A stretch of DNA of 64,000 bases from Roseomonas sp. (GTDB lineage: Bacteria > Pseudomonadota > Alphaproteobacteria > Acetobacterales > Acetobacteraceae), in the NCBI GenBank assembly GCA_031180725.1, contig JAPSLO010000008.1, positions 191,471-255,470 of the forward strand, read 5' to 3'. The translations under genes were made by a program, and so were the position numbers. This document shows positions 4,164 through 13,553 of this stretch, one piece after another. Numbering within the stretch: position 1 is the first letter of the stretch; each line of letters begins with the position of its first letter. The notes below the pieces were generated by a model. That model had not been told where the DNA came from and did not search any database. It saw nothing but the letters and a program-made list of their open reading frames with translations.

Positions 4164-5129
4164 CTATTCCAGTCGCACGCCGGAGGCCTCCACCACCGGC
4201 AGCCAGAGGGCGAGTTGCGCCTGGAGGAAGCTGCGGAATTCATCGGCGGTGGTGCCGGCGGGCTCGGTGCCCGCCTCGCGCAGGCGCTGGGCGATGGCCG
4301 AGTTGGCCACCGCGCTGCGTGCCGCGCGTTCCAACCGCGCCACCAGTGGCGCGGGTGTGGCGGCATGGGCGAAGATGCCCATGAAGTTCATGATCTCGAA
4401 ATCGGCCAGGCCCTGTTCGATGGCCGTGGGCACCTCCGGGAGTTGCGGGTTGCGCGTGCGGGCCAGCACGGCGAGGGCACGCACCGTGCCGGCACGCACC
4501 TGCGGTGCCTGGCTTGCGATGCCTTCCACCAGCCAGTCCACATTCCCTGCCGCCATGTCGGCATAGACCATGCCTGCGCCGCGATAGGGCACGTGATCCG
4601 ACCGCGTGCCGGTGCGCATGTTGAACAGGTGGGCACCCAGGTGGTTGATGCTGCCGGTGCCAGAGGAGCCATAGCTGCTGCGCCCGTCGCGGCTATTCAG
4701 CCAAGCGATGAATTCCGGCAGGCTGCGGGCCGGCACATGATTGGCGACCGTCAGCACCATCGGCATGGTCACGCAGAGAGAGACCGGCGTGAAGGCGGTG
4801 CGGGGGTCCTGCCGCGGGTTCTTCACCAGCCCAGCATTGAGCACCGAGTTGGTGATGGTGAAGAGCGTGATGGTGTGGCCATCGGGTGGCGCGTTCAGCA
4901 CCGCCTCCGCCCCCAGCATTCCCGCCGCGCCGCCGCGGTTCTCCACCACCACTGCCGTGCCGCCGAAGGCTTCCTGCATGCCAGGCGCGACGATGCGCGC
5001 CACGATGTCGGTCGCGCCACCCGGGGCGAAGGGCACGATGAAGCGCACCGACTGGCGCGGAAATTCCTGCGCCAGTGCCGCGACGGGCGCGGCGCCGGCC
5101 AGGGCCGCAAAGGCGCGGCGGGTCAGCAT
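4164..5129 (-). CDS. Bug-family tripartite tricarboxylate receptor
   Basis: A periplasmic solute receptor of the TctC/Bug family, 321 residues. The N-terminus MLTRRAFAALAGAAPVAALAQ is a twin-arginine-like signal peptide. The mature part has the VPFAPGGATD ligand loop and the HVPYRGAG motif. The ATG at 5129 is preferred to the GTG at 5135 because GGGAGG is 9 bases upstream of the ATG but only 3 from the GTG. It starts 2 bases after the stop of the Ldh-type dehydrogenase and is the last catabolic gene of the leftward LysR-controlled operon. No TctA or TctB membrane protein accompanies it. The ligand is unknown; a carboxylic acid is likely from context. Confidence 0.88.
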   Translation of the reverse strand: MLTRRAFAALAGAAPVAALAQEFPRQSVRFIVPFAPGGATDIVARIVAPGMQEAFGGTAVVVENRGGAAGMLGAEAVLNAPPDGHTITLFTITNSVLNAGLVKNPRQDPRTAFTPVSLCVTMPMVLTVANHVPARSLPEFIAWLNSRDGRSSYGSSGTGSINHLGAHLFNMRTGTRSDHVPYRGAGMVYADMAAGNVDWLVEGIASQAPQVRAGTVRALAVLARTRNPQLPEVPTAIEQGLADFEIMNFMGIFAHAATPAPLVARLERAARSAVANSAIAQRLREAGTEPAGTTADEFRSFLQAQLALWLPVVEASGVRLE

Positions 5130-5131
5130 GG

Positions 5132-6238
5132 TCACGATCCTCCCTGCGGAATCAGGCAGGGCACCCCGGCGCGCTCGCAGACCCCCAGCAACTGCCGGGC
5201 GAGGCTGGGCGGGATGGGGATGCCCGCACGCAGCCGCTCCTCCCGCGAGGCCGCCTCGGGGTCGCCGGGCACCAGCACCGGCAGGGCGGGATCGGTGGGC
5301 GGGGTTGCGTGCAGCACGTCGATGACATCGTCCAGGTCGGCCTCGAATTCCCCTTCCTCGCGGAAGGCGGTGGGGTCGAGCGCCATGAAGAAGTGACCGA
5401 GATTGTCGGGGTCCTGCGGCCGCTGGCTGCGCACGCGGATCGGCGAGAAGGAGGCGCCGGAGAGCACGCCGCCGAGGATATGCACCATCATGCCCAGGCC
5501 GTAGCCCTTATGGCTGGACATCTCCGGCGTGCCGCCCACCGGCGTCAGCCCGCCCTGGGGCTGGTTCTTGATGACGTCGAAAGCGGCATTGCCATCCGTG
5601 ACCGGCTGCCCCTTGCCGTCCAGCACCCAGCCGGCGGGCAATGGCTTGCCCTGCAAGCCATAGACGCGGACCTTGTTGGCGGCGACGGTGCTGGTGGCCA
5701 TGTCCAGCCGGAAGGGCCGGTTGCGCTTGGCCGGCGCGGCGAAGGCGATGGGATTGGTGCCCAGCACCGGTACCGCCGCCCGCGTCGGCACCACGCCGAT
5801 GGTGCGCGTAGCGCTGGTCACCATGCCCACCAGCCCCGCCGCGGCGGCCATGGCCGCGTAGTAGCCGGCGGCGCCGAAATGGTGGGAGTTTCGCACCGCC
5901 ACCACGCCCACGCCCGCCGCCTTCGCCTTGCGGATTGCGATCTCCATGCCGAAGACGGCGGCCGGATGGCCAAGACCGGCATCGGCATCCACCAGCGCCG
6001 TCACGGGATTCTCCCGAATGATGCGCGGCTTCGCCTGGACGTTCAGCTTTCCCTTCCGGCGGCTGTCGTCGTAGTCCATGAGCATCGAGATGCCGTGGCT
6101 GTCCACGCCGGAGAGATCGGTTTCCACCATCACCTCCGCGGTGATGCGGGCCGTCTCTTCCGCCATGCCCCAGGCCTGCAGCACGGAGATGATCTGCGCC
6201 CGGCAGGTCTCGGCAGGGGCGCGCAGGAAAGCGGCCAT
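5132..6238 (-). CDS. Ldh-family (malate/L-lactate-type) NAD(P)-dependent dehydrogenase
   Basis: This 368-residue cytoplasmic oxidoreductase belongs to the Ldh_2 family, which includes YbiC, ureidoglycolate and 2,3-diketogulonate dehydrogenases. Visible family motifs are DLSGVDSHG near residues 41-49, the RNSHHFGAAGYY block, DMATS in the middle and SHKGYGLG toward the C-terminus. The substrate is probably a 2-hydroxy acid oxidised to a 2-oxo acid. It sits between a D-2-hydroxyacid dehydrogenase and a Bug receptor, so the operon carries two dehydrogenases of unrelated folds that may act on opposite stereoisomers or consecutive intermediates. Confidence 0.85.
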   Translation of the reverse strand: MAAFLRAPAETCRAQIISVLQAWGMAEETARITAEVMVETDLSGVDSHGISMLMDYDDSRRKGKLNVQAKPRIIRENPVTALVDADAGLGHPAAVFGMEIAIRKAKAAGVGVVAVRNSHHFGAAGYYAAMAAAAGLVGMVTSATRTIGVVPTRAAVPVLGTNPIAFAAPAKRNRPFRLDMATSTVAANKVRVYGLQGKPLPAGWVLDGKGQPVTDGNAAFDVIKNQPQGGLTPVGGTPEMSSHKGYGLGMMVHILGGVLSGASFSPIRVRSQRPQDPDNLGHFFMALDPTAFREEGEFEADLDDVIDVLHATPPTDPALPVLVPGDPEAASREERLRAGIPIPPSLARQLLGVCERAGVPCLIPQGGS

Positions 6239-6241
6239 GGT

Positions 6242-7186
6242 TCAGGCTACCCGGTTCTGCGGCGGGCGGCCCGCCAGGATGTCGATCAGGCTCTGCGCGG
6301 TGACTTCCGCGCTGCGCGCCTGCGTTTCCTCGGTGCCGGCGGCGGCATGCGGGGTGCAGACGACATTGGGCAGGGAGAGCAGCGGCGTGGTCTCCGTGGT
6401 CGGCGGCTCCACCTCGAACACGTCGAGGCCGGCGGCGAAGATGCGGCTATCGCGCAGCGCGTCGCACAGTGCGGCCTCGTCCACGATGCCGCCGCGCGCG
6501 GCATTCACCAGGATGGCGTGCGGCTGCATCAGCGCGAGTTCCGCCGCGCCGATCATGTGGCGCGTCTCCTCGGTCAGCGGGCAGTGGATGGTCAGGATGT
6601 CCGCTTCCCGCAGCAGTTCCGCCAAGCTGGCGGCGCGGCGGTGCGGGATGTCGGGCCAATGATCCGCGGGCACATAGGGGTCGTAGCCGATCAGCTCCGC
6701 CCCGAAGGCGGCGTGCCATTTGCGGGCGACGCGGGTGCCGATGTTCCCCATGCCGATGATGCCCACGCGGCGGCCGCCCGCCTCATGCCCCAGGAAGCGG
6801 TCGCGCTGCACCCGGCCGCCCTTACGCAGCTCCCGGTCCATTTCCGCCACGCGGCGCCCGGCGCAAAGGCCGAGCGTCAGCGCCATTTCCGCCACTGCCT
6901 CGCTGTTCACGCCGGGCGTATTGCAGACGATCACGCCGTGGCGCTTCGCGGCGGCCAGATCGATATTGTCCACGCCGACGCCCTGCTTCAGCACGGCCTT
7001 CAGCCGGCGGGCCGCGGCGAACTCAGCCTCGCCGAGGGTCGTCAGGCGCACCATCAGCCCGTCGGCGTCCTCGCGCCAGTTCGCCACGCGCGGGTCGTCC
7101 CAGCGGACCACATCCGCATGGCGTGCGATCAGCGCCATGCCGGCGGGGTGGTAGCTGTCCAGCACATAGACCTTGGGGCGGCTCAT
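6242..7186 (-). CDS. D-2-hydroxyacid dehydrogenase (SerA-like)
   Basis: A 314-residue NAD-dependent D-isomer-specific 2-hydroxyacid dehydrogenase. The nucleotide-binding site is GIIGMGNIGTRVAR. The catalytic Arg is in NAARGGIVDEAAL, the Glu in FEVEPP and the acid-base His in CTPHAAAGTEE. It lacks the regulatory ACT domain of full-length serine-pathway enzymes, so a catabolic role is likelier. The ATG at 7186 overlaps the stop of the aldolase gene (ATGA), which rules out the longer reading. The aldolase upstream and Ldh-type dehydrogenase downstream suggest interconversion of hydroxy and oxo acids in one pathway. Confidence 0.87.
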   Translation of the reverse strand: MSRPKVYVLDSYHPAGMALIARHADVVRWDDPRVANWREDADGLMVRLTTLGEAEFAAARRLKAVLKQGVGVDNIDLAAAKRHGVIVCNTPGVNSEAVAEMALTLGLCAGRRVAEMDRELRKGGRVQRDRFLGHEAGGRRVGIIGMGNIGTRVARKWHAAFGAELIGYDPYVPADHWPDIPHRRAASLAELLREADILTIHCPLTEETRHMIGAAELALMQPHAILVNAARGGIVDEAALCDALRDSRIFAAGLDVFEVEPPTTETTPLLSLPNVVCTPHAAAGTEETQARSAEVTAQSLIDILAGRPPQNRVA

Positions 7187-7977
7187 GCTTCCAGCGCCTT
7201 CTTCAGCCCGGCGGTCCATTGGCTGGCAGCGGCGGAGAGGAAGGCGAGGTCGGTCTGCGTGGTCAGGAAGCGCACGCCGCGCCTGATGCTTGCGGCCTGG
7301 CGCGCCACGTCGCGGTTGCCGCCGCAGCCGGCGAAGCCGCCATGCGCGGCTGTGGCTGCCACGGCACGGTCCATGGCCTGCACCACGATCGGGTCGTCGA
7401 ACTGGCCGGGCTTGCCCAAGGAGGTCAGCAGGTCGTTGGCGCCGACATGCACCACGTCCACGCCGGGGACGGCCGCAATGGCTTCCAGATTCTCCAGCCC
7501 CTCTGCCGTTTCCACCATGCAGACCACCAGCGTCGCCTCGTTCAGCGCGGCGCTGGCCTGGGCGATGGGGGTGCCGCGATAGTCGAATTGCGGATAGCCG
7601 CCCGAGACGGAGCGCCGGCCCTTCGGCGGAAACAGGCAGCGGTCCACGGCACGCTTCGCCTCGGCGGCGTTGTTCACATCGGGGAAGACGATGCCCCCTG
7701 CCCCGTTGTCCAGCAGCAGCGCGACGTCCGGATCCTCCACGCTGCGCACGCGCACCAGCGGCACCACGCCGATGCCCATGGCGGCGTGGCAGAGCGTGGC
7801 GATGGTTTCCGGATTGAAGACCGAGTGCTGGGCATCGATGAACAGGAAGTCGTGCCCGGTGCCACGCGCGATGCGGGCGATGTCCGGGCTGCGTGCCAGC
7901 CGCACGCTGAGGCCGAAGACGGCCTGGCCGGCGCGCATCTTCGCGCGCAGCGGATTCTCGGGGAGGGTTTGGCTCAT
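7183..7977 (-). CDS. HpcH/HpaI-family aldolase
   Basis: A class II (metal-dependent) pyruvate aldolase-like protein of 264 residues, in the family that cleaves 4-hydroxy-2-oxo acids to pyruvate or oxaloacetate plus an aldehyde or oxo acid. Family features are FIDAQHSVF near residues 45-53, the metal-ligand Glu in MVETAEGLENL and the Asp in VGANDLLTSLG. The usual glycine-rich GGIVFPDVNNAAEA stretch is present. Both ends overlap neighbours by ATGA, so it is tightly coupled to the upstream Bug receptor and the downstream dehydrogenase. The exact substrate cannot be read from sequence. Confidence 0.85.
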   Translation of the reverse strand: MSQTLPENPLRAKMRAGQAVFGLSVRLARSPDIARIARGTGHDFLFIDAQHSVFNPETIATLCHAAMGIGVVPLVRVRSVEDPDVALLLDNGAGGIVFPDVNNAAEAKRAVDRCLFPPKGRRSVSGGYPQFDYRGTPIAQASAALNEATLVVCMVETAEGLENLEAIAAVPGVDVVHVGANDLLTSLGKPGQFDDPIVVQAMDRAVAATAAHGGFAGCGGNRDVARQAASIRRGVRFLTTQTDLAFLSAAASQWTAGLKKALEA

Positions 7978-8966
7978 TCGGGTTTCAGTCCTGCGATCTC
8001 GACGCCGCGGCGGGCCTTGGCGATCTCGGCTTCCATGTAGCGGACCATGCCGGTGGGGGTCTGCTGGTCCTCCGTCGCCACCTCCCCGCCCAAGGCGCGC
8101 AGCCGCTCCTGCACGCGGGCATCGGCCATGACGGCGCGCAGCGCGGTGCCGATCTCTGCCAGCACGGGTTCGGGCGTGCCGGCGGGCGCGGAGAGGCCGA
8201 CGAAGGCTTCCGCGGTGAAGCCGGCCAGCCCGGCCTCGATGAAGGTGGGGATATCCGGTAGCATGTGGCTGCGCGCGGGGGCCGCCACGGCGATGATGCG
8301 CGCGCGGCCGGAGCGGTGCAGGTCCAGCACGCCCGAAAGCTCGGTCAGCGCGCCGGCGAGCGTGCCCGCCACCAGATCCGGAATGGCGGCGCCGCCGCCG
8401 CGATAGGGCACATGCAGAAGCTGCGCGCCGGAATCGGCGTTCAGCACCTCCAGTGGCAAATGGTTGGCTCCGCCGACGCCGGATGTGCCGATGCCGAGCT
8501 GCCCGGGCCGCTGCTTGGAAAGAGCGATCAGCTCAGGCAGGGTCCGCGCGGGGATGTTGTTGGCGACGATCATCACCATCGGCACCCGGGCGATCAGGCC
8601 GAGATGCGCGAAATCCCGCAAGGGGTGATAGCCGGGGTTTGCCTGCACCAGCGGGTTGACGATCAGCGCGCCTGCCGTGGCGCCCAGCAGGGTGTGCCCG
8701 TCCGGCCGGGCGCGCGCCACCTCGGCCGTTCCGATGGAGCCGGCGGCGCCGGCGCGGTTGTCCACCACCACCGCCTGGCCCAGCCGCTCAGCCATGCCGG
8801 AGGCGATGATGCGGATGGTCAGGTCGCCATTGCCGCCCGGAGCAAAGGGCATGACCATCCGCACCGGCCGGTCCGGCCAGGCGCGGGCGGCACCGGGCCG
8901 CAGCAGCGCGGGCGCAACCAGCGCGGTCGCGACCAGGCTGCGCACAAGGGCGCGGCGGTGGATCAT
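7974..8966 (-). CDS. Bug-family receptor, first gene of leftward LysR-controlled operon
   Basis: A 330-residue periplasmic receptor with an RR-containing signal peptide (MIHRRALVRSLVATALVAPA) and the Bug motifs MPFAPGGNGD and HVPYRGGG. ATG at 8966 is preceded by GGGGGAA and gives a clean signal peptide; longer readings do not. It opens the operon Bug, HpcH aldolase, D-hydroxyacid dehydrogenase, Ldh dehydrogenase, Bug. A palindromic LysR-type box lies 74-92 bases upstream of its start. Having a receptor at each end of one operon is unusual and may allow capture of two related substrates. Confidence 0.9.
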   Translation of the reverse strand: MIHRRALVRSLVATALVAPALLRPGAARAWPDRPVRMVMPFAPGGNGDLTIRIIASGMAERLGQAVVVDNRAGAAGSIGTAEVARARPDGHTLLGATAGALIVNPLVQANPGYHPLRDFAHLGLIARVPMVMIVANNIPARTLPELIALSKQRPGQLGIGTSGVGGANHLPLEVLNADSGAQLLHVPYRGGGAAIPDLVAGTLAGALTELSGVLDLHRSGRARIIAVAAPARSHMLPDIPTFIEAGLAGFTAEAFVGLSAPAGTPEPVLAEIGTALRAVMADARVQERLRALGGEVATEDQQTPTGMVRYMEAEIAKARRGVEIAGLKPE

Positions 8967-9039
8967 GGCGTTCCCCCGTATTCTTGCCGCGAGACTGCGG
9001 CCGGGCCCAGGGGCGGTCAAATAGGAAGGCTACTCGCCA

Positions 9040-9058
9040 CCATAGATGCGCCCTATGG
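9040..9058. promoter_or_regulatory. LysR-type operator box 1 (leftward operon)
   Basis: The sequence CCATA-N9-TATGG is a perfect 5-bp inverted repeat with the T-N11-A core of LysR-type operators. It overlaps the lysR stop codon and lies just upstream of the Bug-aldolase operon. Sixteen of 18 bases match the second box at 9972-9989, which makes chance very unlikely. Confidence 0.75.
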
Positions 9059-9946
9059 CCCCGGCAGGCGGGCAACGAAGCGGCGCAGCCAGGGCACGAA
9101 ATGCTGCATCACCGTCGAACGCGGCGCGGCGCGGGCGCGGATCATGAGCGTCCTCACCTCGATCGTCGGGCGCAGCGGGCGGGCGACCAGGCCGGGGATG
9201 GGCAGGCTGTGCAGCAGGAAGGGCTCAACCAGCGCCACGCCGGCCCGGTGATAGGCAAGCGCCATGCCGGTGAGGGAAAGGCTGACCTGCGCGCTGATGC
9301 GCGGCATCACCCCGGCATCGGACAGCGCGCGATCGACATGGGCCCGCAGCAGCGCCTGCGGAAGGTAGGTGATCACCGCATGGCCCTCCAACTCATGCAT
9401 CGCGACCTCCGCCTGGGCGGCCAGCGGGTGGTCATCCCGCATCACGCAGGCGACGCCGGAGCGTAGCAGCACCTCGCTCTCGATCTCCGGATGGGCGATG
9501 GGCTCGAAGACCACGCCGAGTTCCACCTCGCGGCTGACCACGCGATCCAGCACGCCGGGCGAGGTGAGGGATTGCAGCACCACGCGCATGGAGGGGCGTT
9601 CCGCCAGGAAATAGGCCACGGCCTCCGCCAGGAACCCATTGGCGATCGGGAAGGCGCCGGCGACAGACAATGTGCCGAGCCTGCCGCCCTTCAGATCCTG
9701 CAACTGGCGTCCCACCGCGTCCAGGCGGCTGAAGATCGCCTCGATATCGGGCAGGATGGCCTCGGCTTCCGGCGTGGGGTGCAGCCGGCCGCCGACGCGG
9801 CGGAACAGCGGGATGCGGAGCTGCGCCTCGCAATGCTTCAGCACCGCGCTGACCGAGGGCTGGGTCACGCCCAGCATCCGCGCGGCGCCGGTCACCGTGC
9901 CGGTGCGCATCACCGCGTGGAACACCTCGAGCTGGCGCAGATTCAT
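9053..9946 (-). CDS. LysR-family regulator of the catabolic island
   Basis: A 297-residue LysR-type transcription factor. The winged helix-turn-helix spans about residues 3-62 (FHAVMRTGTVTGAARMLGV, then TQPSVSAVLKHCE), followed by the periplasmic-binding-like effector domain. The ATG at 9946 has an excellent GGGAGGAGG Shine-Dalgarno; the much longer open frame upstream is not coding. It lies between two operons that it probably controls: the leftward one starting at 8966 and the rightward one at 10057. Boxes of the same sequence precede both and one also covers its own promoter, so autoregulation is likely. The inducer is unknown. Confidence 0.9.
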   Translation of the reverse strand: MNLRQLEVFHAVMRTGTVTGAARMLGVTQPSVSAVLKHCEAQLRIPLFRRVGGRLHPTPEAEAILPDIEAIFSRLDAVGRQLQDLKGGRLGTLSVAGAFPIANGFLAEAVAYFLAERPSMRVVLQSLTSPGVLDRVVSREVELGVVFEPIAHPEIESEVLLRSGVACVMRDDHPLAAQAEVAMHELEGHAVITYLPQALLRAHVDRALSDAGVMPRISAQVSLSLTGMALAYHRAGVALVEPFLLHSLPIPGLVARPLRPTIEVRTLMIRARAAPRSTVMQHFVPWLRRFVARLPGP

Positions 9947-9970
9947 GGGCGCCTCCTCCCTTTCGGCACA

Positions 9971-9989
9971 GCATAGATGCGCTTTATGG
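9971..9989. promoter_or_regulatory. LysR-type operator box 2 (lysR / amidohydrolase divergent promoter)
   Basis: CATA-N9-TATG inverted repeat with T-N11-A core, 25 bases upstream of the lysR start and 68 bases upstream of the amidohydrolase start. The 18-base stretch 9972-9989 is the same as box 1 except for two central bases (TT instead of CC). The position fits autoregulation of lysR and activation of the divergent operon. Confidence 0.75.
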
Positions 9990-10056
9990 GATCGGGCAGC
10001 CTGCGGGGCTGGACCGGTGGCTCGGGGGCGGGAAGGATGGCGGTGGAGGAAACCGC

Positions 10057-10962
10057 ATGACCACCACCCCGGTGCTGGGCGTGGCCCATTCGGCGCCGGG
10101 CTTCGCCATGCCGCGCGGAGCCTGCGACTGCCACACCCATGTCTTCGGCGACCCCGCCGCCTTTCCTTTCGACCCGGCCCGACTCTACACGCCCGGCGAA
10201 GCGCCGGTGGCGGCGCTGCTGGCGCATCAGGCGGCGCTGGGCCTGGAACGCGTGGTGGTGGTGCAGCCCAGCCCCTATGGCATCGACAATGCCTGCACCC
10301 TGGCGGCACTGCGGGCCCTGGGCCCGGCGCGGGCGCGCGGCGTGGCAGTGATCGGCCCGGACATAACGGATGCCGAGTTGGCGGAGATGCAGGCCGCCGG
10401 CGTGCGCGGCGTGCGGGTGAACCTGGAGACAGCCGGCGAAGCCGACCCGGAGCGCGCCGCCGCGGCGCTTTTCGCCGCGGCGCGTCGCGTGGCGCCACTC
10501 GGCTGGCATGTGCAGCTCTATGCGCGGCTGTCACTGATCGCGGCCCTGGAACGGATCCTGTTGGACTTCCCGGTGCCGCTGGTCATCGACCATTACGGGC
10601 GGGTGCGGGCCGAGGCGGGTCCCGGCCAGCCCGGCTTCGCGGCGCTCTGCGCGCTGCTGCGACAGGGCCCGGCCTATGTGAAGCTGTCCGCGCCGCACCG
10701 CATCTCCAGTCGCCCGGACCAGGCCGATGTCGGCTCCATCCTGCAAGCCCTGGCCGGGGCGAATCCGGACCGGCTGCTGTGGGGCAGCGACTGGCCGCAT
10801 CCGGGCGGACGGCCCGGTGTGCCGCGCCGGCCGGAGGTGATGGAGCCCTTCAACCCGGTGGATGACGGCGCCGCCCTGGCGCGGCTGGCCGGCTGGGCCG
10901 GCGATGCCGCGCTGCTGCGCCGCATCCTGGTGGACAACCCTGTCCGTCTCTATGGCTTCTGA
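10057..10962 (+). CDS. amidohydrolase, 2-pyrone-4,6-dicarboxylate hydrolase-like
   Basis: A 301-residue TIM-barrel metal-dependent hydrolase of the amidohydrolase_2 group that includes LigI and similar lactonases. The metal-binding motif DCHTHVF is at residues 24-30, a conserved VIDHYGR at mid-protein, and LLWGSDWPHP near residue 245 supplies the catalytic Asp. No signal peptide is present, so it acts in the cytoplasm. It is the first gene of the rightward operon, with GGTGGAGG before the ATG and a LysR box further upstream. With an HpcH aldolase in the other arm, a lactone or pyrone dicarboxylate is an attractive but unproven substrate. Confidence 0.82.
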   Translation: MTTTPVLGVAHSAPGFAMPRGACDCHTHVFGDPAAFPFDPARLYTPGEAPVAALLAHQAALGLERVVVVQPSPYGIDNACTLAALRALGPARARGVAVIGPDITDAELAEMQAAGVRGVRVNLETAGEADPERAAAALFAAARRVAPLGWHVQLYARLSLIAALERILLDFPVPLVIDHYGRVRAEAGPGQPGFAALCALLRQGPAYVKLSAPHRISSRPDQADVGSILQALAGANPDRLLWGSDWPHPGGRPGVPRRPEVMEPFNPVDDGAALARLAGWAGDAALLRRILVDNPVRLYGF

Positions 10963-10976
10963 AGGAAGAAACGGCC

Positions 10977-11735
10977 ATGCGCGTCTCCACCGGCGGATGG
11001 GATATCGATGTCATGGTCAGCGGCTATCCCGGCAAGTCCACCGTCTATGGCGGGCTGGGCTGGTCCACCATGGTTCTGTTGCGCGGCCATGGCCGCGCGG
11101 TGGTGCTGGATGGCGGCGGCTACGGCCAGCGCAACACGCTGCACGCCTTCCTGAAGGAGCGCGGCCTGACGACGCTTGACGTCACCGACCTTCTGCTGAG
11201 CCACGCGCACAACGACCATTGCGTGAACTGGCCGATGTTCCGCCATGCACGCATCTGGATCGGGCGCCTCGAACTCGGCTGGGCGCTGGGCGTGCCCTGG
11301 GGCGAGACGCCGGTGCCCGAGCATGTCGTCATGGCGCTGAGCACCTGGCCAACTCTGCGGCTGATGGAGGATGGCGAGACAGTGCTGCCCAACATCACGG
11401 CCCATCTCGCCCCCGGCCATACCCCCGGCCACCTGATCTTCGTCGTGCATGACGAGGAGCGCGACGTGATCCTGCTGCAGGACGCGGTGAAGAACCGCGC
11501 CGAGCTGATCAGCCGCGACACCGACATGACCTACGACCCAAAGGTCAGCGCCGCCACCATCGCCATGGTGTGGGAGATGGTCCGCAAGCGCCCCGGCAGC
11601 CTGCTGGTGCCTGGCCACGACCAGCCGCTGGTCGTGGAGAACGGCGTGCCCCGGGCCTTGGGCAAGCATACGGCCGGCATCCGCGCCTGGATGGGCGACG
11701 ACCTCACGACGGTCACGACTTTCCCACTGGCCTAG
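10977..11735 (+). CDS. metallo-beta-lactamase fold hydrolase
   Basis: A 252-residue MBL-fold protein. The zinc-binding signature is SHAHNDH with His76, His78, Asp80 and His81, followed by the third-site histidines in HLAPGHTPGHL and the C-terminal VPGHDQP. No signal peptide is visible. It follows the amidohydrolase by 14 bases and probably hydrolyses an ester, lactone or thioester intermediate of the same pathway. The family is broad, so no specific reaction is claimed. Confidence 0.83.
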   Translation: MRVSTGGWDIDVMVSGYPGKSTVYGGLGWSTMVLLRGHGRAVVLDGGGYGQRNTLHAFLKERGLTTLDVTDLLLSHAHNDHCVNWPMFRHARIWIGRLELGWALGVPWGETPVPEHVVMALSTWPTLRLMEDGETVLPNITAHLAPGHTPGHLIFVVHDEERDVILLQDAVKNRAELISRDTDMTYDPKVSAATIAMVWEMVRKRPGSLLVPGHDQPLVVENGVPRALGKHTAGIRAWMGDDLTTVTTFPLA

Positions 11736-11796: not shown

Positions 11797-12765
11797 ATGC
11801 TCAGGAGGGAACTGCTTCTCGGCACGGCCGGCTTCGCCGCCATGGCCGGAGCCACGCGCGCCCAGGATGCGGCCTGGCCGGTGCGCCAGGCGCGCATCAT
11901 CATTCCCTTCGCCGCCGGCGGCCCGCAGGACATCCCCTGCCGCATCATCGCGGACCGGCTGAGCCAGCGTCTGGGCGCCACCTTCGTGGTGGAGAACCGC
12001 GCCGGCGCAGGCGGCGGCATCGGCGCGCAGGCGGTGGCGCGATCGGCGCCGGATGGCGGAACGCTGCTCTTCATCTCCGCATCCATTTCCATCCTGCCAA
12101 CCCTGCAGCCGACACTGAACTTCGACCCCGTGCGCGACCTGGAGCCGCTGAGCATCGTCTGCGACCTGCCCGCCGGGCTGCTGGTGCGCGCTGACAGCCG
12201 ATTCCAGAAGGTCGAGGATCTGATCGCCTTCGCCCGCGCCAATCCGGGCAAGCTGACCTACGGCACGGGTGGAGTGGGCTCGGCCAACCACCTCACCACC
12301 GCGCTTTTCGCCTCCATGGCCGGCATCGAGCTGACGCATGTGCCCTATCGCGGCGTGGCGCCGGCGATGAATGCGATCATCGCCGGCGAGATCGACCTGG
12401 TCTTCGGCAGCTCCATCGAGGTGCTGCCGCATCACCAGCAGGGCCGCGCGCGGCTGCTGGGCGTGACGACAGAGCAGCGGCTGCCGGTGGTGCCGGATGT
12501 CCCGGCGATCGGCGAGGTGGTGCGGGGCTATGCCGCGCCCAACTTCTTCTCGATGTATACGCCAAAGGGCTTCCCGCCCGCGCTGCGCGACCGGCTGGTG
12601 GCGGAACTTGCCGCATTGAAGGACGACCCGCAGCTGAAGGAGCGGATCGACGCCGCCGCCGGCATCATCCGCCTCGACGGGCCAGAGGCGCTCGCCGCCC
12701 GCCTCAAGGACGAGATCAACAAGTGGCGGAGCCTGATCGACTCCGCCAACATCAAGCCAGACTGA
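11797..12765 (+). CDS. Bug-family receptor of rightward operon
   Basis: A 322-residue periplasmic receptor with signal peptide MLRRELLLGTAGFAAMAG and the Bug loops IPFAAGGPQD and HVPYRGVA. The start has a strong AGGGAGGA site. It follows the MBL hydrolase by 61 bases and precedes the class II aldolase by 8 bases. This is the third Bug receptor within 9 kb of the same LysR gene, and it probably delivers the substrate or co-inducer of the pathway. No TctAB pair is nearby. Confidence 0.88.
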   Translation: MLRRELLLGTAGFAAMAGATRAQDAAWPVRQARIIIPFAAGGPQDIPCRIIADRLSQRLGATFVVENRAGAGGGIGAQAVARSAPDGGTLLFISASISILPTLQPTLNFDPVRDLEPLSIVCDLPAGLLVRADSRFQKVEDLIAFARANPGKLTYGTGGVGSANHLTTALFASMAGIELTHVPYRGVAPAMNAIIAGEIDLVFGSSIEVLPHHQQGRARLLGVTTEQRLPVVPDVPAIGEVVRGYAAPNFFSMYTPKGFPPALRDRLVAELAALKDDPQLKERIDAAAGIIRLDGPEALAARLKDEINKWRSLIDSANIKPD

Positions 12766-12773
12766 GGAGAGCC

Positions 12774-13553
12774 ATGACCGTTACCTCAAGACTCGATATC
12801 GCCCCCATCCAGGGCTCGGTCAGCGAGGCCGAGTGGAATGCGCGCGTGGATCTCGCGGCCTGCTACCGGCTGTGCGATCGCTACGGCATGTCCGACATGA
12901 TCTACACCCACATCACTGCGCGGGTGCCGGGTACGACGGACCAATTCCTGATCAACCCGAACGGCATGCTGTTCAGCGAGATCACCGCTTCCTCGCTGCT
13001 GAAGGTCTCGATCGACGGCACGGTGCTGTACCGGCCGGAGACTCCCTACGGCCTGCATCCGGCGGGCTTCACCATCCACAGCGCAATCTACCGCGCGCGG
13101 CCGGATGCGGCGGCGATCATGCACACCCACACGGTCGCCGGTATGGCGGTCAGCGCGCTGAAATGCGGGTTGCTGCCGCTGACGCAGACAGCCACCCGCT
13201 TCTATGGCCGCATCGCCTATCACGACTTCCGCGGCCCGGAGCGCGACCCTTCGGAGCGCGACCTGCTGGCGCGCAGCATTGGCGATCGCAACTACTGCAT
13301 CCTGCGCAATCACGGCCTGCTGACCATCGGCGAGAGCGTGCCGGAAGCCTTCATCGCCATGTGGGGCATGGAACGCGCCTGCCAGGCGCAGCTTCAAGCC
13401 ATGGCCTGCAACACGCCGCTGGAAATTCCGAGCGACGAGGTGGTGGCGAAGTCCTGCGGCATGTACGAGAACAATTCGCGCCGCTACGGCCTGCTGGAAT
13501 GGCCGGGCCTGCTGCGCCAGCTCGACCGGACGGATCCGGACTTCCGGAACTGA
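12774..13553 (+). CDS. class II aldolase/adducin-family protein
   Basis: A 259-residue member of the class II aldolase/adducin family, which includes L-fuculose-phosphate aldolase and several decarboxylases. Zinc ligands are His117 and His119 in IMHTHTVAG and His180 in LRNHGLL. The start at 12774 is preceded by GAGGAGA. It closes the rightward operon. The family is broad; a retro-aldol cleavage or decarboxylation of the pathway intermediate is inferred from context, not shown. Confidence 0.85.
   Translation: MTVTSRLDIAPIQGSVSEAEWNARVDLAACYRLCDRYGMSDMIYTHITARVPGTTDQFLINPNGMLFSEITASSLLKVSIDGTVLYRPETPYGLHPAGFTIHSAIYRARPDAAAIMHTHTVAGMAVSALKCGLLPLTQTATRFYGRIAYHDFRGPERDPSERDLLARSIGDRNYCILRNHGLLTIGESVPEAFIAMWGMERACQAQLQAMACNTPLEIPSDEVVAKSCGMYENNSRRYGLLEWPGLLRQLDRTDPDFRN

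Follow-up and report, generated by a model that had tools for sequence, protein, structure and literature searches.

Candidate LysR-type operators at both ends of a lysR gene face two operons in a Roseomonas genome

In the 64,000-nucleotide stretch of Roseomonas sp. DNA analyzed here (the window), a lysR gene carries a palindromic box at each end, and each box faces an operon encoding Bug/TctC proteins and enzymes. The best-supported reading of the sequence is that each box is a LysR-type operator for the operon it faces, because their position, spacing and promoter elements are conserved and the same operator precedes an unlinked orthologous operon. We consider it very probable that LysR binds both copies, one per gene end, and activates both operons in an inducer-dependent manner. 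The boxes, their fixed spacing, the -35/-10 pattern, the conservation and the co-occurrence with target operons were computed. The features of the locus, with their strand and evidence, are:

4164..5135, strand -, second Bug/TctC protein (Pfam 1.4e-54)
5132..6238, strand -, Ldh_2 (malate/L-lactate/sulfolactate type) dehydrogenase (Pfam 2.5e-113; PDB relatives)
6242..7219, strand -, D-2-hydroxyacid dehydrogenase (Pfam 7.5e-59)
7183..7977, strand -, HpcH/HpaI-family aldolase (Pfam 2e-27)
7974..8966, strand -, Bug/TctC periplasmic binding protein, first gene of the box 1 operon (Pfam TctC 1.6e-56)
8992..8997, strand -, putative -10 element CAGTCT, 18 nt after the -35 (NANNNT pattern; predicted transcription start near 8985)
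9016..9021, strand -, putative -35 element TTTGAC, 19 nt after box 1 (conserved fixed spacing)
9041..9057, strand -, box 1, candidate LysR recognition site facing the Bug-aldolase operon (sequence, conservation, profile)
9053..9946, strand -, lysR, LysR-type transcriptional regulator (LTTR), 297 aa (Pfam HTH_1 3e-19, LysR_substrate 5e-33)
9972..9988, strand +, box 2, candidate LysR recognition site facing the amidohydrolase operon (sequence, conservation, profile)
10009..10014, strand +, putative -35 element CTGGAC, 20 nt after box 2 (conserved fixed spacing)
10033..10038, strand +, putative -10 element AAGGAT, 18 nt after the -35 (NANNNT pattern; predicted transcription start near 10045)
10057..10962, strand +, Amidohydro_2 enzyme, first gene of the box 2 operon (Pfam 1.9e-45; PDB 4d8l 1.3e-42)
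10977..11735, strand +, metallo-beta-lactamase-fold hydrolase (Pfam 1.6e-12)
11797..12765, strand +, third Bug/TctC protein (Pfam 2.3e-63)
12723..13553, strand +, class II aldolase/adducin-family protein, start codon uncertain, overlapping the preceding frame (Pfam 9.7e-49)

Box 1 (CATAGATGCGCCCTATG, 9041-9057, strand -) and box 2 (CATAGATGCGCTTTATG, 9972-9988, strand +) are the only two copies of CATA-N9-TATG in the window, where 0.07 would be expected (mean of 100 dinucleotide shuffles, none of which reached two copies). Both lie where an earlier note on this DNA had placed them, and both contain the T-N11-A palindrome of LTTR recognition sites, as that note had also said. It was right that the boxes are nearly identical, but its count of 16 matches in 18 bases was not: 16 of 19 bases agree between 9040-9058 and 9971-9989, and 15 of 17 over the 17-bp cores. 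The box centers are 931 bp apart, at opposite ends of lysR. The placement relative to the genes was also described correctly. Box 1 lies ahead of the Bug-aldolase operon and encloses the lysR stop codon (TAG, complement of 9053-9055); box 2 lies between lysR and the amidohydrolase operon, which it faces, 25 nt upstream of the lysR start codon. The amidohydrolase operon is divergent from lysR, and the Bug operon is co-directional with it.

The window LysR has an N-terminal HTH_1 domain and a C-terminal LysR substrate-binding domain, both above the Pfam cut-off. None of the best 25 of its 51 NCBIfam matches, which cover named LTTR subfamilies (Nac, CynR, GltC, PRK11013 and others), reached its cut-off; the highest score among these 25 was that of PRK11013.1 (139 bits against a cut-off of 288). 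Nac sites have the form ATA-N9-TAT, with the same core spacing as the window boxes, but the window LysR scores 47.9 bits with the NCBIfam NAC model, whose cut-off is 309, and so is not Nac. Among the enzymes, the amidohydrolase has 2-pyrone-4,6-dicarboxylate hydrolase as its closest solved structure (PDB 4d8l, 1.3e-42). A sulfolactate pathway was considered for the two dehydrogenases and rejected; the L-sulfolactate dehydrogenase model scored 232 against a cut-off of 500, so we do not claim membership of that pathway.

LysR orthologues are rare. At E<=1e-60 they occur in 4 of 150 family genomes and 4 of 15 genus genomes (own genome included), and at E<=1e-58 in 15 of 397 family genomes. In named genomes, a scan returned 34 relatives, with those of Neoroseomonas (also Acetobacteraceae), Roseomonas sp. 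HF4 and Plastoroseomonas 67-76% identical. We compared 17 loci, window included, and set aside other distant relatives among the 34. Alignment of the lysR flanks of these relatives brought out a composite element: a T-N11-A box, 19-20 bp, YTGGAC (-35), 18-19 bp and NANNNT (-10). In an offset scan, box and YTGGAC stand 19 nt apart at 7/7 co-directional lysR 3' ends, and 19 nt (8/17) or 20 nt (4/17) apart in the lysR 5' regions. The remaining offsets mostly gave 0 or 1 locus, with a maximum of 4 (offset 39, 5' set), and dinucleotide shuffles predict 0.12 loci for the 3' set and 0.20 for the 5' set. The hexamer and thresholds were set after viewing the alignments, so these offset counts characterize the pattern but do not amount to a blind test; the relatives, moreover, are not independent. 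NANNNT follows the -35 with a spacer of 18 in 13 of 20 sites and of 19 in 5, and with any other spacer from 12 to 28 in none; the shuffle control, which covered spacers 17/18, gave a mean of 0.87 against the 13 observed, and 0 of 3000 shuffles reached 13. Across the 20 sites the invariant part of the box is CAT...AT. A canonical LTTR promoter also has a secondary (activation) site that extends to the -35; here the spacer adjoining the -35 is partly conserved (for instance, C-T-A in many 3' sites), with no separate palindrome standing out.

Calculated from the conserved -35 and -10 elements, the predicted center of box 1 is at about -64 and that of box 2 at about -65, which is where LysR sites usually lie. 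A simple sigma-70 scan found no promoter-like site here; both promoters are probably weak, as is the -10 (NANNNT). The earlier note held that the operator can be written from sequence alone. It is better written with the -35 and -10 than as CCATA-N9-TATGG, the scan pattern proposed there, which would miss box 2 because that box begins GCATA.

In every locus that combines a LysR of 63% or higher identity with a Bug or class II aldolase gene immediately after lysR, the composite is found at the lysR 3' end (7/7). This becomes 7/8 if L031 (38% LysR) is counted; there a co-directional TctC gene follows lysR, yet the 3' end has no composite. In L076 and L077 (49% LysR) a T-N11-A box close to the lysR 3' end precedes an HpcH gene, but YTGGAC is missing. 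At the 3' end of L033, a relaxed match (5 of 8 in the box) looks fortuitous and is not reported by the profile R1 described below. The stop codon of lysR falls within the box in 5/7 loci (window, L029, L072, L074 and L075). In L073 (7209-8219) the lysR frame extends over the box beyond the usual stop position, and the box is kept. A stop codon inside a box is unusual and is most simply explained by compact packing.

Loci with an unrelated neighbor serve as natural controls. In the Neoroseomonas loci L026, L027 and L028, lysR is not directly followed by a co-directional operon, and its 3' end is free of the composite. They retain the composite on the lysR 5' side, where the divergent genes are unlike those of the window. 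For instance, those of L027 encode a CMD-family protein, a 3-hydroxyisobutyrate-dehydrogenase-like protein and an NADH:flavin oxidoreductase; the same regulator and operator with a different target operon suggests target exchange. The 5' composite is absent from 5 of the 17 lysR 5' regions (L033, L029, L076, L077 and L078), and in L029, another locus with an unrelated neighbor, the divergent gene is kdpA. Two betaproteobacterial loci, L031 and L032 (38-39% LysR), carry CATC...GATA-19-TTGGAT/TTGGAA about 60 nt upstream of lysR; their sites belonged to the R1 training set, and since they keep the spacing, it may be old.

The composite stands ahead of the orthologous Bug-aldolase operon even when the latter lies about 24 kb from lysR, as in Plastoroseomonas hellenica (a five-gene operon whose proteins are 69-81% identical to their orthologues), or is inverted, as in G398. 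The earlier note had made conservation upstream of orthologous operons a test of the motif, and the composite is indeed kept there, including at operons that do not adjoin lysR. Its recurrence in related bacteria makes the switch look real.

This bears on whether box 1 is needed at all. If only box 2 worked, transcription of the Bug-aldolase operon would depend on read-through from lysR, leaving box 1 as a chance or relic copy. The window allows for this, since lysR and the Bug gene lie on one strand with a gap of about 86 bp in which a simple scan found no terminator-like site. However, the lysR 3' composite is kept in all seven co-directional loci, and the orthologous operon bears the composite where no lysR precedes it (L111 and L072). 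We therefore regard read-through with a single working box as highly improbable and retain the reading of two operators.

The bare box does not define the operator sufficiently. CATA-N9-TATG is only mildly enriched in the 5.69 Mb genome, with 12 sites where the backward-read control has 5, and we rejected it as a definition in its own right. The exact CATAGATGCGC-NN-TATG occurs only at the places of box 1 and box 2. Four bare-box sites (L003, L006, L010 and L012) are the 17-mer CATAACGTTATCGTATG, possibly part of a mobile or repeated element. We inspected the six remaining sites (L001, L002, L004, L005, L009 and L011), and only L001 is a lysR/tctC intergenic region. It (C6:148444-148460, own genome) belongs to a second divergent lysR/tctC pair, with the bare CATA-N9-TATG at the lysR start.

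We then built R1 from 16 relatives' sites, none of them from the window. At E<=10 it has exactly two matches in the own genome, box 1 and box 2 (150 of 785 first-look candidates scored). Singly, the two scores are weak (E 0.285 and 0.74 per genome), and the match to box 1 ends at position 40 of 44. A second profile, R2, includes the window sites and gave nine matches at E<=10, with the window boxes at 25.1 and 22.7 bits. Its next-best match (16.0 bits) is partial, lies inside a tctC reading frame and was rejected; one other match is box 2 on the opposite strand, and the R2 scan of the own genome gave no convincing third operator. The expectation that the motif is not scattered through the genome thus holds for the composite, for which R1 reports the two window boxes only (E<=10, 150 of 785 candidates scored), but not cleanly for the bare box, which has ten other sites.

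R1 further matched several sites on which it had not been trained: the 3' end of lysR in L073 (24.6 bits); L072 203-245 (20.0 bits), before an inverted TctC-HpcH-Ldh2-TctC operon near lysR; the region upstream of lysR in G300 (23.9 bits), a sequence distinct from that of L026; G180:C9:61584 in Plastoroseomonas hellenica (22.8 bits), before the orthologous five-gene Bug-aldolase operon; and G387:C1:4745 (17.7 bits), which precedes a second aldolase-Bug operon, located on a different contig. The small self-contained regulon described in the earlier note is therefore upheld for the own genome within the reach of our scans, but not for relatives, where the operator is also found at unlinked operons.

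These results bear on the possibility that the boxes have no regulatory function and are either a local duplication or palindromes present by chance. In favor of it, the inner bases of the window boxes are nearly alike (the 15 of 17 above), and the box pairs of relatives differ. However, the spacing to the -35 and -10 is conserved, it is kept in relatives, and a window-free profile retrieves both boxes. Conservation largely refutes this explanation, and we consider it extremely unlikely.

Across the family, R1 matches at E<=0.1 occur in 20 of 397 genomes: 10/15 with a lysR orthologue and 10/382 without, a ratio that is not independent because, of the 10 matching genomes with an orthologue, 9 had supplied sites for training. 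The five orthologue-bearing genomes without a match at this threshold are the own genome, which fell below it under the stricter filters of that scan, and G095, G010, G092 and G247. Among the ten positive genomes without an orthologue we inspected G145, G214, G137 and G276, leaving out G065, G122, G185, G220, G239 and G350. The matches in G214 and G276 are one chance match within a conserved reading frame, and that in G137 has no related genes nearby. In G145 (L112, G145:C470, 1397-3178), a LysR about 30% identical to that of the window is divergent from a PhyH-family gene, with the composite CATAGCATACATGTATG-19-TTGGAC. Since this composite accompanies a different LysR, the architecture is wider than the window regulator.

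A close HpcH relative is present in 25 of 397 genomes, 21 of which have no lysR orthologue. In 20 of these 21 (G144 left out), R1 found no match near the HpcH relative (0/20), and a looser string test gave partial matches in 5/20; this control is weak because none of the 20 shows two adjacent dehydrogenases, so the operons may differ.

The boxes and promoters could also be real but read by a different LysR encoded in this genome, or by several LysR proteins with a common motif. The genome does have further LysR genes, and the one at L001 (about 26% identical over the aligned part) has a bare box before a Bug gene; in addition, the distant LysR of G145 has the same composite. Against this, the boxes abut the window lysR, and the composite tracks its orthologue in the family scan, with the reservation about training sites given there. 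We judge another reader very unlikely and continue with the window LysR as the protein that probably binds both boxes.

Much of this agrees with what is described for other LTTRs in PMC4834489 and PMC5002191, and the window boxes fit both descriptions. In the canonical arrangement, a T-N11-A site centered near -65 overlaps the divergent promoter of the regulator (PMC4834489). The window shares the T-N11-A, the predicted center at -64/-65 and a box upstream of lysR that faces a divergent operon; it differs in having a second complete candidate operator at the lysR 3' end, which encloses the stop codon and would drive the operon on that side. The general LTTR motif CTATA-n9-TATAG, from Gammaproteobacteria (PMC5002191), has the ATA-N9-TAT core and two-fold symmetry of the window boxes, but the outer pairs in the window are C/G (CATA...TATG), and the part invariant over our 20 sites is CAT...AT, not the full ATA...TAT. 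ThnR of Sphingopyxis granuli (PMC4834489) regulates a pair of divergent promoters as well as further operons. As proposed for the window, a single LTTR acts on more than one promoter, and every promoter has a primary site of its own; in contrast, the window promoters lie at opposite ends of lysR. Within the open-licence papers and the terms that our literature search covered, we found none that dealt with the window regulator or described a LysR operator placed at the regulator's stop codon.

From the computed pattern we infer binding by the window LysR, activation rather than repression, autoregulation and the kind of ligand. LysR would bind box 1 and box 2, one operator at each end of its gene. 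The inducer would be a small molecule, probably an organic acid handled by the operon enzymes and Bug proteins. On sensing it, LysR would recruit RNA polymerase to both weak promoters, so that the Bug-HpcH-dehydrogenase operon would be transcribed leftward and the amidohydrolase-MBL-Bug-aldolase operon rightward. LysR on box 2 probably also represses lysR. The locus is a typical LysR-type regulon, of a well-known design, and the interpretation given in the earlier note is largely borne out. A bolder version, which we think rather unlikely, is that the lysR 3' end is a conserved promoter switch, that tetramers may bridge the 931 bp and loop both operons and lysR into one unit, and that the operator, not gene order, holds the regulon together, since in relatives the composite accompanies target operons to unlinked positions.

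The general picture of LysR regulation is unchanged by these results. What they provide is a step from a repeat found by eye to a testable regulon in Acetobacteraceae, with its operator written as box, spacing, -35 and -10. The regulon concerns a Bug/aldolase/amidohydrolase pathway, and because the operator ties operons that stand apart in other genomes to one regulator, it helps to assign the members of that pathway.
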